Source of the DNA: a virus
DNA: 32,372 nt
Strand: one strand, 5' to 3'
IMG/VR virus record: IMGVR_UViG_3300033144_001600
Location: 1 to 32,372 of that record
Position 1 is the stretch's first letter. Every line of letters starts with the position of its first letter. A program made the translations under genes and the position numbers. Below, one piece after another: positions 9,594 through 19,187 of this stretch. Below the pieces are notes generated by a model that did no database searches, was not told the DNA's origin, and was given only the letters and a program-made list of their open reading frames with translations.

Positions 9594-10054
9594 GCTGCTT
9601 CCTCCGCCGCTTCTGGCTCTCTCACGGCTGTATAGATAGCGCCTACCGGGGCCAGTCCGACCCGCTCGTATAGCTGTCTTGTTCGTTCCACGTCGATCCC
9701 GGATGATTGTGCCATCGTGACTTCGATCACGTTTGGCAGGCTCCACGCCCATTTAACAAACTGCCTGATCATGCGGTATCCATCCCCCGGCGTCTCCGCG
9801 TAGGTAATGATATCAGTAGCGCTACGGCTCTTCGAGAACCATAGCGGCACCGCTGCACCGAGTAACAACCCGGTGATCTTGCCATCGTGCTCGGCCACCA
9901 GCGCCATCCCAAAGGCAGAGTTAATGCACTGCCCCAGCGTCTGGCCGGCCGTCAGCGTGTCGATCTTCACGTCAGCATACGGCGTCATCTTAATCAGCCG
10001 CTTGCCCAGCGCAAGAAGCTGTGGCAGATCTGCAACTTGTGCCATCCTGATCAT
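9590..10054 (-). CDS. GNAT-fold N-acetyltransferase-like protein (154 aa)
   Basis: The ATG at 10054 overlaps the upstream stop (ATGA). A second in-frame ATG sits three codons later. The pattern follows the GNAT fold: an N-terminal IRMAQVADLPQLLALGKRL (strand-helix), a central strand pair FGMALVAEHDGKITGLLLG (about residues 48-66) and a final QLYERVGLAPVGAIYTAV (about residues 127-144), the usual YERxGF-like end. The acetyl-CoA loop (R/Q-x-x-G-x-G/A) is degenerate, with DGYRMIRQFVKWA in its place, so catalytic activity is doubtful. GNAT-like proteins are often encoded among internal virion genes of short-tailed phages, where they may be structural. A structural role fits the neighbours, but acetylation of a host target cannot be excluded. 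Confidence 0.8.
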   Translation of the reverse strand: MIRMAQVADLPQLLALGKRLIKMTPYADVKIDTLTAGQTLGQCINSAFGMALVAEHDGKITGLLLGAAVPLWFSKSRSATDIITYAETPGDGYRMIRQFVKWAWSLPNVIEVTMAQSSGIDVERTRQLYERVGLAPVGAIYTAVREPEAAEEAA

Positions 10055-11684
10055 GGTTCGTTATAGACGTTGCCGCCTGCCCCTGTGTCATTCCTATCGT
10101 ACTCGTTATCAAAACCACCATTATCGCCACCAGTACCAGTATCGCCACCAGTACCAGTATCACCACCAGTACCAGTATCACCACCAGTACCAGTATCGCC
10201 ACCAGTACCAGTATCGCCACCAGTACCAGTATCACCACCAGTCTCGCCACTAGTGCCAGTTACATCCCATGTAGGATCCCAGTCCGGATTGCTGCTGTAC
10301 ATGCTGGCGATCATCGCAATATCAGATTCGTAGTTTCTACGCGCTACAGCGACGGCGTTGTTTTGCTGGGCGGCGGTCAGCCCCTGTTGGCCGTAGATGC
10401 TCTGAATCTCTGTAGAGAGTTGACGGTTGCGAGCACTAACCTCAATTAAGTAATTCTGCTGTAGCTGCTCGACAAATCTTTGCTTACTCAGTGCTGCGTC
10501 TACATCTGCTCCCGCCATCAATCTCTCAAGCGCCGCAATATCGGCTTGAGATTGTATGTCAGCGTTGATTCCGCCCTGCGCAATAATCCGATCAAGCGCC
10601 GCAAGGTCTGACTGGGTTTGCAGGTCCCTGTTAATGTCGCCCTGCGCAAGAACACGCGCCAGCGCCGCAAGGTCTGCCTGTGACTGCAGGCCAACATCGA
10701 GTGCGCCTTGCTCCCGTAATCTTTCCAGTGCCGAGGCATCTGCTTGGGCTTGTAAACTAGCGTTGACATCGCCCTGCGCACCAATAGCCTCAATGTTATA
10801 ACTGTGATCCTCGGCCATTCTGGCCAACCACTGCGTATGATCCTGTGCGCTCAGTTCAAGTGCGTTTTCAAGATCAACGGCCGCCAGTTTCAGCCTGTAA
10901 CCATAGTCCTGCTTCATTAGTTCTGTATCAAAGCCAAACTGCTGCAGTAAGCGCTCGGCGTCAATATCGCCCTGCAGTGTGAGTTGCTGCAACCGATGCA
11001 AATTATCCTGTGCAGACAGGTCGAAGTTGTAACCGAACTGCTCTAACTGCAAGCGACTGTTGATGTCGCCTTGCTGGGCCTGTTCAACTAAGTTATTCAG
11101 GTGGTCCTCGGCCATCAGCATTGAATCAATAGTTCCCTGCATTGCCTTCAAACCACCGGCCTGATAGTACTCAGCCTTTTGGGCAGAGCGTCGAGCAAAT
11201 ATATCGGCATCTTGCTGTGCGATAGGCAAGGCGGAATTGATCACGGCCTGACTGGATGCCTCGGCGGCTATATCCGAGTTCTGCAGTCCACGACTATTGG
11301 CATACTGTGATGCCTGCCCGCGAGCCCAGTCGAATAGCAGGTTGTTCTGGTTCAGAAGGCCCTCAAGCCGCCCCTGTACCGTCTGCTCTTCTGTTACCTC
11401 GGGGCCCTTGTCAGCATAGGTCCCTAGCGTATCCGTTATGTCAGCCGTATTTTCCTCAGTGAATAGATCAGTAGAGGCCCCACCACCTACCGGGTCAGTA
11501 AAGCCTGTAGCTGTTTCATCTTTCTGATACTGGTCTTTCTGAACCGTATTGGCAGCCCACCACCTACCGGCCCGGTCATTGCCGTAGACGTATCATCCTT
11601 AACGGACTGGTCTTTTTGAACCACCGGCTGCGCAAACAGCTCGGAGCTATTCAGGGTCTCTTCTTGCGGTATCGTTGTAGGCAT
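10051..11684 (-). CDS. Repetitive coiled-coil internal virion protein, reading frame broken by a single-G deletion
   Basis: An ATG at 11684 with a GAGGA site upstream opens a frame that ends at 11487. A second frame, open from just after 11558 to the stop at 10051, continues the same protein. At 11556-11558 the run reads three Gs, while the second copy of the local repeat has four (11478-11481). Restoring one G gives a single 544-aa product. The body is helical with 22-residue units (QSQADLAALARVLAQGDIN-type), then a (TGTGGD)n acidic Gly/Thr tail and an Asp/Asn-rich end. If the deletion is real, only a product from the GTG at 11244 (397 aa) would be made from the body. Position and composition suggest an internal virion or ejection protein. 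Confidence 0.75.
10123..10248 (-). repeat. 18-bp minisatellite, six copies plus a partial copy
   Basis: The 18-bp plus-strand unit ATCGCCACCAGTACCAGT (fifth-position variants ATCACC...) repeats from 10123 to 10230 without interruption, with a partial seventh copy to about 10248. On the coding strand it gives the hexapeptide TGTGGD. The near-perfect identity of the copies implies recent expansion or ongoing copy-number change. It is inside a coding frame and its unit keeps the frame, so it is not a CRISPR. Confidence 0.9.
10530..10795 (-). repeat. Diverged 66-bp tandem repeats coding 22-residue helical units
   Basis: Four successive protein units of 22 residues start LQAQADASAL, LQSQADLAAL, LQTQSDLAAL and IQSQADIAAL and mostly end in a Q-G-x-[ILV]-[ND] turn. 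The DNA copies have diverged but share segments such as AGCGCCGCAA and GCCCTGCGCA. Twenty-two is two hendecads, so the helices may form a right-handed coiled coil. Looser copies of the QGDIN mark continue towards the N-terminus. Confidence 0.75.
11478..11625 (-). repeat. Two-copy tandem repeat of about 70 bp at the start of the coiled-coil gene
   Basis: Two adjacent copies encode VQKDQSVKDDTSTAMTGPVG and VQKDQYQKDETATGFTDPVG, both ending in the same GGTAGGTGGTGGG DNA stretch. They are similar but not identical, so the duplication is old. The loss of one G in one copy is what breaks the frame. Confidence 0.7.
11487..11684 (-). pseudogene. N-terminal piece of the frame-broken coiled-coil gene (65 aa as written)
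   Basis: This is the part of the preceding gene upstream of the missing G. Its first 43 residues (through TGPVGGG) belong to the intact protein. The last 22 residues, beginning LPIRFRKTS, come from reading on in the wrong frame, which the Arg/Lys-rich composition and similarity lost to the repeat make clear. It has the proper ribosome site and ATG of the full gene. Confidence 0.6.
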
Positions 11685-11793
11685 CTTTCTTTTCCTCGCT
11701 GATATCCGATTTTACCCGGTCCAGCTTTCGCATCCAGTCCAATAGCAATTTCATACGAGCGGCATTGTGCTCGCCTTGATTTTCAAGGTTCAC
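11647..11793 (-). CDS. Possible small charged protein between spanin and virion genes (48 aa)
   Basis: A frame from a GTG at 11793, overlapping the spanin stop, runs to a TAG at 11647-11649. An internal ATG at about 11754 would give 35 residues. The product is helical and highly charged (LLLDWMRKLDRVKSDISEEKK). It fills the otherwise empty bases between the spanin gene and the ATG at 11684, which it overlaps by 38 bases. There is no convincing ribosome site, so expression would depend on coupling. No family is recognised. Confidence 0.35.
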   Translation of the reverse strand: MNLENQGEHNAARMKLLLDWMRKLDRVKSDISEEKKDAYNDTARRDPE

Positions 11794-12070
11794 TACTCTG
11801 CCAATCTTCAATAATGCTGAATCTCTCGTTGCAGGCTCCCTGCTCCGAATCCTTCTGTTTCATCAGCTCCAGTATCTCAAACCACGTCCACAAGCTGCCC
11901 GTTTGCGGCAGAGGCGTCACCTGACACTTCGCCAATAGGTGCCCGGGCACCTGCACCGGCACCAGTTTGTCCTGATAAACTATCTCAGGATCCGATAGCA
12001 CTGTCCGGGTCGTGCAGGCTGTCAATAAGACCAGCAGGCACAAACTCAGAAGCACACTCAAGCTCTTCAT
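11783..12070 (-). CDS. Outer-membrane lipoprotein spanin (o-spanin, Rz1-like), nested start (95 aa)
   Basis: An ATG at 12070 has a strong GGAGGGG ribosome site 7 bases upstream, inside the second duplication copy. The product begins MKSLSVLLSLCLLVLLTAC, a lipoprotein signal peptide with an LTAC lipobox (Cys19). It continues with the Pro-rich LVPVQVPGHLLAKCQVTPLP stretch typical of Rz1-like proteins. With its own ribosome site it can be made independently of the upstream frame and would partner the coiled coil of the inner-membrane spanin. Normally such a gene lies in a different frame from the i-spanin. Here it is in the same frame because of the 32-bp duplication. Confidence 0.75.
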   Translation of the reverse strand: MKSLSVLLSLCLLVLLTACTTRTVLSDPEIVYQDKLVPVQVPGHLLAKCQVTPLPQTGSLWTWFEILELMKQKDSEQGACNERFSIIEDWQSSEP

Positions 12071-12421
12071 CCGTAATCCCCTCCAGCGCAACCTCTCTTC
12101 ATCCGTAATCCCCTCCAGCGCAACCTTTATGCGCTGATCAAAATCCACCTTGGCGCTCACTAATCCTTCCTGCGATAACGCCAGTAGCTTGGTCGCGGCT
12201 TCGGTCTTAATCCGTTGCTCTTTCAACTGATCCATTACGTTGTCGTGGTTAGCCTGTACCTCGACCAGCGTAGCTGCCTGTCTCGCATTCACGCCGGCAG
12301 CCATGTCAATGCCTTGCTGCAGGATCCCATTCGCTTCCTTGGCGCTCAGGAGCAGCCAGCCCACAATGCCCAACGCAACCATGCTGGCAGCCAGCCCACC
12401 TAGAAGGATCTTGCTAATCAT
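11783..12421 (-). CDS. Fused inner-membrane spanin / outer-membrane spanin frame (212 aa)
   Basis: Spanins link the inner and outer membranes at the end of lysis. The ATG at 12421 overlaps the holin stop. Residues 1-30 are a single N-terminal membrane anchor (ILLGGLAASMVALGIVGWLLL), and residues 31-109 are a periplasmic coiled coil, exactly like an i-spanin (Rz type). From residue 118 the same frame continues into a complete outer-membrane lipoprotein (o-spanin, Rz1 type). The joint is a perfect 32-bp tandem duplication (12063-12126). Removing one copy restores an ordinary i-spanin of about 134 aa overlapping an out-of-frame o-spanin. The fusion is therefore either a recent mutation, an assembly artefact, or a new single-chain product. 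Known single-chain u-spanins have the opposite order (lipoprotein end first). Confidence 0.8.
   Translation of the reverse strand: MISKILLGGLAASMVALGIVGWLLLSAKEANGILQQGIDMAAGVNARQAATLVEVQANHDNVMDQLKEQRIKTEAATKLLALSQEGLVSAKVDFDQRIKVALEGITDEERLRWRGLRMKSLSVLLSLCLLVLLTACTTRTVLSDPEIVYQDKLVPVQVPGHLLAKCQVTPLPQTGSLWTWFEILELMKQKDSEQGACNERFSIIEDWQSSEP
12063..12126. repeat. Perfect 32-bp tandem duplication at the spanin junction
   Basis: Copies 12063-12094 and 12095-12126 are identical and abut. Because 32 is not a multiple of three, the second copy shifts the upstream spanin frame into that of the downstream lipoprotein. Each copy carries a GGAGGGG-ATTACGG-ATG start signal on the minus strand. Confidence 0.95.
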
Positions 12422-12600
12422 TGTCCTAGCACGTTTTCCTTCTTAACGTAGCCGACCAAGGCCACCACGAAGGCAACCGATGCAGCAACCAGTGTGGCTC
12501 GCGGATCGGTATCAGTGAACTGTATGACCATTTCCCAGAAAAGCGTCATACCCATGCCCGCCAAGCTGGCGGCCTGAATTGTTGATGATGGTTTGTTCAT
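12418..12600 (-). CDS. Holin (60 aa, two membrane segments)
   Basis: Holins form holes in the inner membrane that set the time of lysis and let the endolysin reach the wall. The product is short. It has two hydrophobic segments, AASLAGMGMTLFWEMVIQF and ATLVAASVAFVVALVGYV, separated by an acidic turn TDTDPR and followed by a charged KKENVLGQ tail, as in class II holins. Two starts are possible: the ATG at 12606 and the ATG at 12600 with a GAGG site upstream. The pair could set up dual-start regulation, as in lambda S. It lies between a membrane protein and the spanin in the lysis cassette, with overlaps on both sides. Confidence 0.8.
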   Translation of the reverse strand: MNKPSSTIQAASLAGMGMTLFWEMVIQFTDTDPRATLVAASVAFVVALVGYVKKENVLGQ

Positions 12601-12893
12601 TAGCATCCTACCTCTGTAAGTATCTTCTCCCGGGCGTCGTCACGACACATCGCGTGATCCGGCAACTCGGTACAAAGATGAATCAACTCTTCCTCCAGAG
12701 CACGGCACAGCCACTCCTGCGGCCCGTTGTCCCTGATCTGCCCCATGTAATCGAACACTGTTCGCACCCGTTGTTCAGACAGGTGCTGCTTGAAATCTTC
12801 GGAGGCAACGTGCGCGTGGTCCATGTACATGGCACCGCCACCGATGGTAGTAATAGCGCCAACTACGGCCGCCCCTGCAATTATTGGATTCAT
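12600..12893 (-). CDS. Small N-terminally anchored protein of the lysis cassette (97 aa)
   Basis: I place the start at the ATG at 12893, which overlaps the amidase stop (ACATGA). Longer in-frame starts lie inside the amidase gene. Residues 1-24 are a hydrophobic Gly/Ala/Ile segment that is either an inner-membrane anchor or a signal peptide. The rest is helical and charged with four cysteines (CRALEEEL, HLC, MCRDD, VGC at the very end) that could pair in the periplasm. The location between endolysin and holin points to a lysis or envelope role, such as an antiholin or accessory spanin-like factor. No family is recognised. Confidence 0.7.
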   Translation of the reverse strand: MNPIIAGAAVVGAITTIGGGAMYMDHAHVASEDFKQHLSEQRVRTVFDYMGQIRDNGPQEWLCRALEEELIHLCTELPDHAMCRDDAREKILTEVGC

Positions 12894-13342
12894 GTTGCAA
12901 ACCCCATGGTTTCTGCCCATTCCTGAGCGTCGAAATTGGGGCACGTCTTGCGGTCGTCCAGATCGCGATGGCCCCTGATAACGCACTGCGGATACACCGC
13001 CAGTACGAACGTAATTGCGTGAGCCAGAGCATCCCACTGCTCGGGCAGGAAATTATTCTCCATGCCGCCATCCTCGCTCATGCCACCAACGAGGCAAATC
13101 CCAAGTGCATGGAAATTATGCCCAGAAACGTGAGCACCCTGATGGTCCAGCGGTCTGGCTATCTCGATGAAACCAGTCTTGTCATTGCTCGGCCGCCTCG
13201 GGATCACAATGTTGTAGCCGGCATCCGACCAGCCGCGGTCCAGATGCCACTGCCGGATCTCATCCTCGTTGATGTGCATCATGCTCGGCTTGGTGTCCGC
13301 GCAATGGATCACGATCATGTCTGTGTATTCACGCTCAGTCAT
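12890..13342 (-). CDS. Endolysin: T7-lysozyme-type N-acetylmuramoyl-L-alanine amidase (150 aa)
   Basis: This enzyme cuts the amide bond between muramic acid and L-alanine in peptidoglycan. The ATG at 13342 overlaps the upstream stop (ATGACTGA). Length matches T7 gp3.5 (151 aa). The Zn ligands are visible as His13 (IVIHC), His125 (RGHRDL) and Cys134 (KTCPNFD), with catalytic-site Tyr43 (DAGYNI) and Lys132 just before the Cys. The family signatures IRQWHLDRGWSDAGY and GAHVSGHNFHALGICLVGG are present. No signal peptide is present, so release depends on the holin two genes downstream. T7 lysozyme also inhibits T7 RNA polymerase, but nothing here shows that second function. Confidence 0.95.
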   Translation of the reverse strand: MTEREYTDMIVIHCADTKPSMMHINEDEIRQWHLDRGWSDAGYNIVIPRRPSNDKTGFIEIARPLDHQGAHVSGHNFHALGICLVGGMSEDGGMENNFLPEQWDALAHAITFVLAVYPQCVIRGHRDLDDRKTCPNFDAQEWAETMGFAT

Positions 13343-13643
13343 TTTTCTTTCTAAGCTCCACCAGAATTTCTCTGTGCCCTGATTCAACCTTCAAGTGCAA
13401 TAATCTGAAATCCTCTTTGTTCTCCAGCCGCCTTGCCTCGAACTTTCGGTCCCACTCACGCCGATCTTTGTTTAAGTTCATCTGGCAGGCAGCATGATGA
13501 GCTTCCGTTTTCTCAAGGTCATCCTCCACCTGCTTTACCCGGCCGCCAAAGTGTTTTTGCACCAACGAAAAAACAGCGCCGGCAAGCAGCATGATCAGGT
13601 AGACGAGATAATTAGTAACCCCGCTGTCTGTCGGCCCATCCAT
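13335..13643 (-). CDS. Single-span membrane protein with cytoplasmic coiled coil, lysis cassette (102 aa)
   Basis: I use the ATG at 13643. A TTG 18 bases upstream is in frame but lies inside the preceding gene and has no ribosome site. Residues about 11-31 (YLVYLIMLLAGAVFSLVQKHF) are one membrane segment. The remainder is a strongly charged heptad coiled coil (KQVEDDLEKTEAHHAACQMNL onward). Its place just before the amidase, with a stop-start overlap, suggests a lysis-timing partner such as a pinholin or antiholin-like protein, or a bitopic helper like XhlA-type proteins. This is inference from layout and topology. Confidence 0.75.
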   Translation of the reverse strand: MDGPTDSGVTNYLVYLIMLLAGAVFSLVQKHFGGRVKQVEDDLEKTEAHHAACQMNLNKDRREWDRKFEARRLENKEDFRLLHLKVESGHREILVELRKKND

Positions 13644-18186: not shown

Positions 18187-18334
18187 TTACTTGATGGTGT
18201 GGCCGCGGCTGACTTTAACGCTCGGGTTGGCTCCGGACTTCTCGTTCTTGCCAACTGAGTGCATTCCCCTCTTTATGGCTCAAACCAGAAACTACTCCAG
18301 CGCCTTGCTTTGCGTCTCGTTTCATAGATTTCAT
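18187..18334 (-). CDS. Tiny gene after the capsid paralogs, apparently frameshifted at a G run
   Basis: An ATG at 18334 has a strong GGAGG site 8 bases upstream. As written it gives 39 residues ending at 18215 (MKSMKRDAKQGAGVVSGLS...). Dropping one G at the GGGG run near 18265-18268 joins the first 23 codons to a second frame that ends at 18187 and reads HSVGKNEKSGANPSVKVSRG. This gives a smooth 48-residue basic protein. The second frame also has its own ATG at 18264 right after AGAGGGGA, so two short overlapping genes are an alternative. No family is recognised. It may be a small capsid-associated peptide. Confidence 0.5.
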
Positions 18335-18367
18335 ATCGAAATCCTCCGTATTATCGGTCTGCTAATC

Positions 18368-18775
18368 CTACCACCAAGAAATGACAATGTTGATAAACGC
18401 GATGCCATCCGTGGATGCCTGTGTCAACACTACTTCGAGTTGCGTGATGCCTTCGGTTGCAATATCGACTACGCCCTTGCCACCTTGACCGTTATCAAAC
18501 GCCTCGGTCTCCCGGTCCATACTCAGACCGTTAGTGTCGGCCAGCGTCCCGATATTCAGCTCAGCATAGTGAGCTGCATCGCCCGCCGTGCCGATCTCGA
18601 CTTTCGCCGCACCGTCAGTAAACGTCTCGGTACACATGGCATTGATGTCATCAATTCTGCATCGAGACATCCCATCAGGGACAGGAATGGCGAATGCGTC
18701 ACTGCCAGTAGCGCCGAGGTTGTACGAGCCTAGAGAGTAGATTTGAACTCTTGGATTGTCGTAGCTGTTACTCAT
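18368..18775 (-). CDS. Capsid-associated small protein, tandem paralog 2 (135 aa)
   Basis: The ATG at 18775 has a GGGAGGG site just upstream. Longer in-frame starts lie inside paralog 1. It starts SNSYDNPRVQIYSLGSYNLG and ends INIVISWW, and shares about three quarters of its residues with the next gene upstream. The middle is beta-rich with a conserved stretch HYAELNIGTL..., DRETEAFDNGQGGKG, ITQLEVVLT. It lies directly after the major capsid gene, the usual place for decoration or capsid-stabilising proteins. That role is inferred. It has one Cys in the VSRCRIDDIN-type segment and another in MCTETF. Confidence 0.8.
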   Translation of the reverse strand: MSNSYDNPRVQIYSLGSYNLGATGSDAFAIPVPDGMSRCRIDDINAMCTETFTDGAAKVEIGTAGDAAHYAELNIGTLADTNGLSMDRETEAFDNGQGGKGVVDIATEGITQLEVVLTQASTDGIAFINIVISWW

Positions 18776-18785
18776 ATCGCCCTCC

Positions 18786-19187
18786 CTACCACCACGAAAT
18801 AACAATGTTGGTGAAACCGATGCCGGTCGTGGTTGACGTAGTGAGAACCACTTCAAGCTGTGTGATGCTCTCCGTCGCGATGTCAATCACGCCTTTACCT
18901 CCCTGACCGTTGTCAAACGCCTCAGTTTCCCGGTCCATGCTGATACCGTCAGTATCCCCAAGTGTCCCGATATTCAGTTCGGCGTAGTGATTTGGATCGC
19001 CACTGGTGCCGATCTCGACTTTACCGCCAGCCGTGAAAACCTCGGTACACCCCACGTTGATGTCATCAATTCGACACCGTGACACGCCATCAGGAACGGG
19101 GATTGCGAATGCGTCACCAGCATTGGCAAAGTCAAATTGACCAAGACCGTAGGTTTGCACCCTCGGATTGTCGTAACTGTTACTCAT
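18786..19187 (-). CDS. Capsid-associated small protein, tandem paralog 1 (133 aa)
   Basis: The ATG at 19187 follows a GGAGAG site right after the major capsid stop. The sequence begins SNSYDNPRVQTYGLGQFDFA and ends TNIVISWW. It aligns along its whole length with paralog 2, with small indels around residues 20 and 52. The shared core is beta-rich and ends in a Trp pair, a compact single-domain protein without membrane segments. Placement between the major capsid gene and its own copy suggests a decoration or cement protein on the capsid surface. A two-gene set may give hetero-oligomers or two site types. Confidence 0.8.
   Translation of the reverse strand: MSNSYDNPRVQTYGLGQFDFANAGDAFAIPVPDGVSRCRIDDINVGCTEVFTAGGKVEIGTSGDPNHYAELNIGTLGDTDGISMDRETEAFDNGQGGKGVIDIATESITQLEVVLTTSTTTGIGFTNIVISWW

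Follow-up and report, generated by a model that had tools for sequence, protein, structure and literature searches.

The spanin locus described here is best explained, with a probability that we put at about 0.88, as an ordinary overlapped spanin pair whose frame is broken by a 32-bp tandem duplication, the latter being either recent or present only in the assembly. The window, that is the whole stretch of DNA that was analysed, is a linear IMG/VR virus record of 32,372 bases. It encodes an SU10-type portal and adaptor, and its phage is an environmental phage of the SU10-portal type.

The gene order around the locus is like that of a lysis cassette: an Amidase_2 endolysin, a small membrane protein, and the spanin locus downstream of both, all on the minus strand. 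The endolysin (12890..13351), an N-acetylmuramoyl-L-alanine amidase, matches phrog_822 (3e-48) and PF01510 and is 68% identical to that of the closest relative, IMGVR_UViG_3300027881_000617 (hereafter G001). The small membrane protein (12418..12606) is without a PHROG or Pfam match; given its place in the cassette it may be holin-like.

The fused frame and its two parts

An open frame of 212 aa (11783..12421, minus strand) joins the N-terminal part of an i-spanin to an o-spanin. Its N-terminal TMD (residues ~5-25) is followed by a helical domain and then by another hydrophobic stretch, which contains the lipobox LTAC. Hydropathy places this second segment at residues ~118-136 with positive charges before it; the lipobox cysteine is residue 136, and the other cysteines are residues 166 and 197. 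Residues 117-210 match phrog_456, an Rz-like spanin, and residues 132-209 match PF23793 (LysC). A tblastn search of phages with the fused protein returned no match, nor did megablast with 12 kb of the window.

The i-spanin part (12095..12421, minus strand) runs from the start through the TMD, which is evident from the hydropathy of residues 1-28, and a periplasmic domain of probably helical character to ...VALEGITDEE. It is without cysteine, and its product is 52% identical to residues 3-111 of the i-spanin ORF of G001, which itself matches the Rz-like spanin phrog_214 weakly (E 0.0012). The o-spanin of 95 aa (11783..12070, minus strand) begins at an internal ATG at 12070 and has a signal sequence and the lipobox, which together with its family matches mark it as a spanin lipoprotein: taken alone it matches phrog_456 at 1.5e-11 and PF23793 at 5e-7 (above the cut-off), and it is 72% identical to the o-spanin of G001. 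A Shine-Dalgarno-like run GGAGGGG (12078..12084, minus strand) lies 7 nt before this ATG, and a second GGAGGGG run is present in the other copy of the repeat. If the duplication is real, a free o-spanin could, judging from these signals, still start at 12070. The original prediction, that the two parts are an i-spanin and an o-spanin, is borne out by the phrog_456 and PF23793 matches, the TMD and the lipobox.

With both membrane anchors in one chain, the frame resembles the unimolecular spanin gp11 of T1. However, in u-spanins the lipobox is N-terminal and the TMD C-terminal, and T1 gp11 is beta-rich and without periplasmic cysteine (PMC6139136). The fused frame has the reverse order of anchors, as had been pointed out, it contains the cysteines 166 and 197, and its parts are recognisable as i- and o-spanins. 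Because of the reversed order and the cysteines, we reject its membership among u-spanins.

Could the fusion nevertheless be a functional spanin of another kind, in which the inner-membrane anchor precedes an internal lipobox and processing lets the chain bridge the membranes or yields both parts? The frame is open with both anchors inside, and the Shine-Dalgarno site and start for a free o-spanin are kept. Against this, a second hydrophobic segment that follows an anchor of N-in topology could well leave the lipoprotein domain on the cytoplasmic side and so mislocalise it, and a TMD-first single chain with an internal lipobox is not among the architectures named in a survey of 586 spanin systems (PMC6139136). 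Together with the comparison with relatives given below, this makes a functional fusion highly improbable in our opinion.

The 32-bp duplication

Positions 12063-12094 and 12095-12126 are adjacent copies of 32 bp, 100% identical and exactly 2.0 in number; the gene is on the minus strand. Since 32 is not a multiple of three, the two copies of the unit AGGTTGCGCTGGAGGGGATTACGGATGAAGAG fall in different frames: the upstream one in gene sense (12095..12126) is translated in that of the i-spanin (...ALEGITDEE), the downstream one (12063..12094) in that of the o-spanin (RLRWRGLRMKS...). By chance, the window should contain only ~3e-15 perfect adjacent pairs of 32-mers, or ~5e-5 pairs if every period of 15-300 is admitted, which rules out a chance repeat. 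Hence the perfect tandem duplication noticed originally is indeed in the record, and its proposed role as the cause of the fusion holds, since its length is not a multiple of three and the single-copy relative has two frames. A frame of 11 codons, MKRGCAGGDYG-stop (12067..12102, minus strand), which starts at the ATG of the upstream copy and whose TGA overlaps the o-spanin ATG, is a by-product of the duplication.

The exact 32-bp unit, single or double, was not found in IMG/VR records other than the window. We also surveyed perfect tandem pairs with a period of 15-300 in 73 sequences, 706 kb of contigs in total; the 32-bp pair is the only one with a non-triplet period, the remaining pairs being in-frame and overrunning their unit. 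The 32-bp repeat has zero further matching bases on either flank, and junction microhomology is absent.

A pair of direct copies might act as a reversible switch, in which slippage between them would alternate two-gene and fused states, or +1 frameshifting would restore the i-spanin tail. Slippage can delete a 32-bp direct tandem repeat, the alternative state would be an intact pair, and across the second copy the i-spanin tail remains open and undamaged. However, IMG/VR yielded no second record with two copies, no frameshift motif is recognised, and we know of no precedent for a phase-variable late lysis gene. We regard such a switch as the least probable of all the explanations. Even taken as one broader proposal, a single-chain i-to-o spanin or switching between fused and two-gene states via gain and loss of the 32 bp, with a free o-spanin from the internal start, seems very unlikely to us.

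The locus in related phages

G001 (~70% protein identity, MCP 95%) is the one close relative that covers the spanin locus (n=1). It has a single copy, an i-spanin of 133 aa with its own stop, and an o-spanin of 96 aa in the +1 frame that extends beyond the i-spanin stop. If a single copy is assumed for the window, the arrangement becomes that of G001, with an i-spanin of 134 aa and the lipoprotein ATG at 12070 in the +1 frame. This much of the single-copy reading proposed earlier stands, but its description as nested does not. In the implied ancestral layout the start of the o-spanin lies ~0.8 of the way along the i-spanin, and its frame extends ~200 nt beyond the i-spanin stop, so that we reject a nested or embedded architecture; judged from the sequence, the arrangement is of the overlapped class (Kongari et al. 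2018, PMC6139136).

Related phages were to be compared according to the original prediction, and the more distant ones agree with G001 in using two overlapping frames. A relative found via its capsid protein (L100/L101, MCP 68%) has the two-frame layout, with the o-spanin in +1 (E = 1e-14), an i-spanin at E = 4e-4 and a homologous i-spanin tail. Salmonella phage birk, a weak match to the o-spanin query, is annotated with a holin and an endolysin followed by two Rz-like spanins (YP_009857709, YP_009857708), i-spanin then o-spanin, which overlap by 56 nt in the +1 frame. Its cassette order and tail (CANTVAPSAVLEL versus CASEFVPAGLIDSL) are like those of the window, although identity is low (34% over 68% of the o-spanin) and the duplication is absent. 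Thus an out-of-frame o-spanin and a separate i-spanin stop are found in G001, L100 and birk, but not in the window, because the duplication puts both spanins in one frame. Among known systems, the locus is also close to the overlapped two-component spanins of the P2 LysB/LysC type: the o-spanin matches PF23793 and PHROG 456, lies in +1, extends past the i-spanin and has an endolysin nearby, whereas a single frame for both spanins through a 32-bp duplication is peculiar to this record. That relatives seen with the locus (G001, L100/L101, birk) use two frames argues further against a functional fusion.

Scans of IMG/VR with the spanin protein, the o-spanin alignment and a DNA pattern of the tail matched only G001. 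Neither a search of genome contigs with the o-spanin alignment nor one baited with the gene that follows the spanins gave a match. Another relative, G002 (28760 b), has the common phage backbone; its contig, however, breaks off within the amidase, leaving the spanin region outside.

The unread i-spanin tail

The conserved i-spanin tail, EELECASEFVPAGLIDSLHDPDSAIGS-stop (11985..12068, minus strand), is intact in the DNA, in a frame that the fusion does not read, and carries the sole cysteine of the i-spanin. The window C-terminus is DEELECASEFVPAGLIDSLHD, within 11985-12071, where the fusion reads the other frame; the matching C-termini are DEDLECASEFVPAALIDSLHD in G001, DDDWWCASERIPDIVINGMHM in L100 and DDSCANTVAPSAVLELMR in birk. 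A tail conserved from the window to birk would thus be lost in a functional fusion.

The i-spanin frame is stop-free in the overlap, although unread. Across the 20 overlap codons compared, it differs between the window and G001 by 2 nonsynonymous and 4 synonymous codon changes, the o-spanin frame by 6 and 0, respectively. The frame abandoned by the fusion was therefore the more constrained one, and it has not decayed; 20 codons is a small sample, but the direction is clear. These counts and the undecayed tail indicate that selection acted on the i-spanin frame up to a very recent time, and hence that the duplication is either new or artefactual. The idea of a new way of making a spanin is accordingly disfavoured, given the single copy in the sole close relative, the intact and more constrained tail, and the two further frame breaks described below. 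One may object that it is remarkable for a duplication to yield so long an open fused frame, yet the o-spanin frame is open anyway.

The normal state would be an overlapped two-component pair. The i-spanin, translated in frame 0, would comprise an inner-membrane anchor, a helical periplasmic part and a C-terminal CA...VP...LI tail; the o-spanin lipoprotein would be made in the +1 frame, near the end of the i-spanin, from its own Shine-Dalgarno site and ATG. Their C-termini would meet across the periplasm, and the membranes would be fused at lysis. Only in this record does the duplication carry the reading of the i-spanin over into the o-spanin frame; it either arose very recently or is absent outside the assembly.

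Two-component spanins depend on C-terminal contact and cysteines (PMC6139136), and nonsense mutations along the Rz chain, up to but not including the last residue, abolish lysis by lambda (PMC5295617). On the other hand, where the two genes overlap, the C-termini of i-spanins can differ from phage to phage (Kongari et al., PMC6139136), thus some change of the tail may be tolerated. If the duplication is real, an i-spanin without its tail and sole cysteine and with an extra hydrophobic segment should give a non-functional or impaired pair, and the expected phenotype would be loss or reduction of spanin function. The 212-aa fusion is probably not a working design.

Recent mutation or assembly error

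Frames are broken at two other places in the contig. A small gene (~18190-18343, minus strand), adjoining the capsid-region genes, is split into two frames at ~18268 by a gap of 26 nt in comparison with G001; the gene is intact in 8/8 other distinct relatives where it is found (L100/L101, identical there, counted once). At ~11558 there is a frame change in the gene downstream of the spanins (GGTGGTGGGCTGCC; ~11487-11690, minus strand), inside a diverged in-frame tandem duplication at ~11490-11610 (VQKDQ...PVGGG twice). The main part of this downstream gene, ORF 10051-11244, has no ATG, GTG or TTG start further upstream in frame, and coding similarity to G001 persists upstream of it. With three lesions that disrupt frames within 32 kb of otherwise tightly packed phage genes, consensus error is the favoured reading. 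Sequencing error has likewise been suggested for an undetected spanin frame in phage ADB-2 (PMC6139136).

The original prediction allowed for a mutant or an assembly error, and we keep both. Tandem duplications occur in phage genomes, and lambda tolerates spanin loss conditionally. A genuine natural mutation, fixed or segregating, that disables the i-spanin is therefore possible, with lysis achieved via osmotic or shear rupture or a co-infecting phage; the diverged duplication at ~11490-11610 is a precedent nearby. However, the junction shows no microhomology, and the two unrelated frame breaks point to consensus errors. We hold a genuine mutation to be a tentative, though substantial, possibility, and an error of assembly or consensus to be somewhat more probable than even.

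Two other repeats of the window may be mentioned here. Beside the major capsid gene lie two adjacent diverged paralogs of a ~133-aa protein (18371-18775 and 18789-19187, minus strand); their counterpart in G001 and G002 is one ORF, 146 aa from stop to stop, which matches the two of them. An 18-bp in-frame tandem array at 10117-10242 (7 copies, 96%) gives a tail-fibre-like protein a GGDTGT repeat in its C-terminal part.

Implications

In metagenomic phage contigs, a short tandem duplication, whether genuine or an artefact, can mimic a new protein architecture, and a conserved but unread second frame exposes such mimicry. A fusion that proved both real and functional would give spanins a third mode of construction and would put the handling of internal lipoboxes to the test. 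As for the locus itself, it contributes a divergent overlapped spanin pair, whose tail motif also occurs in cultured phages.
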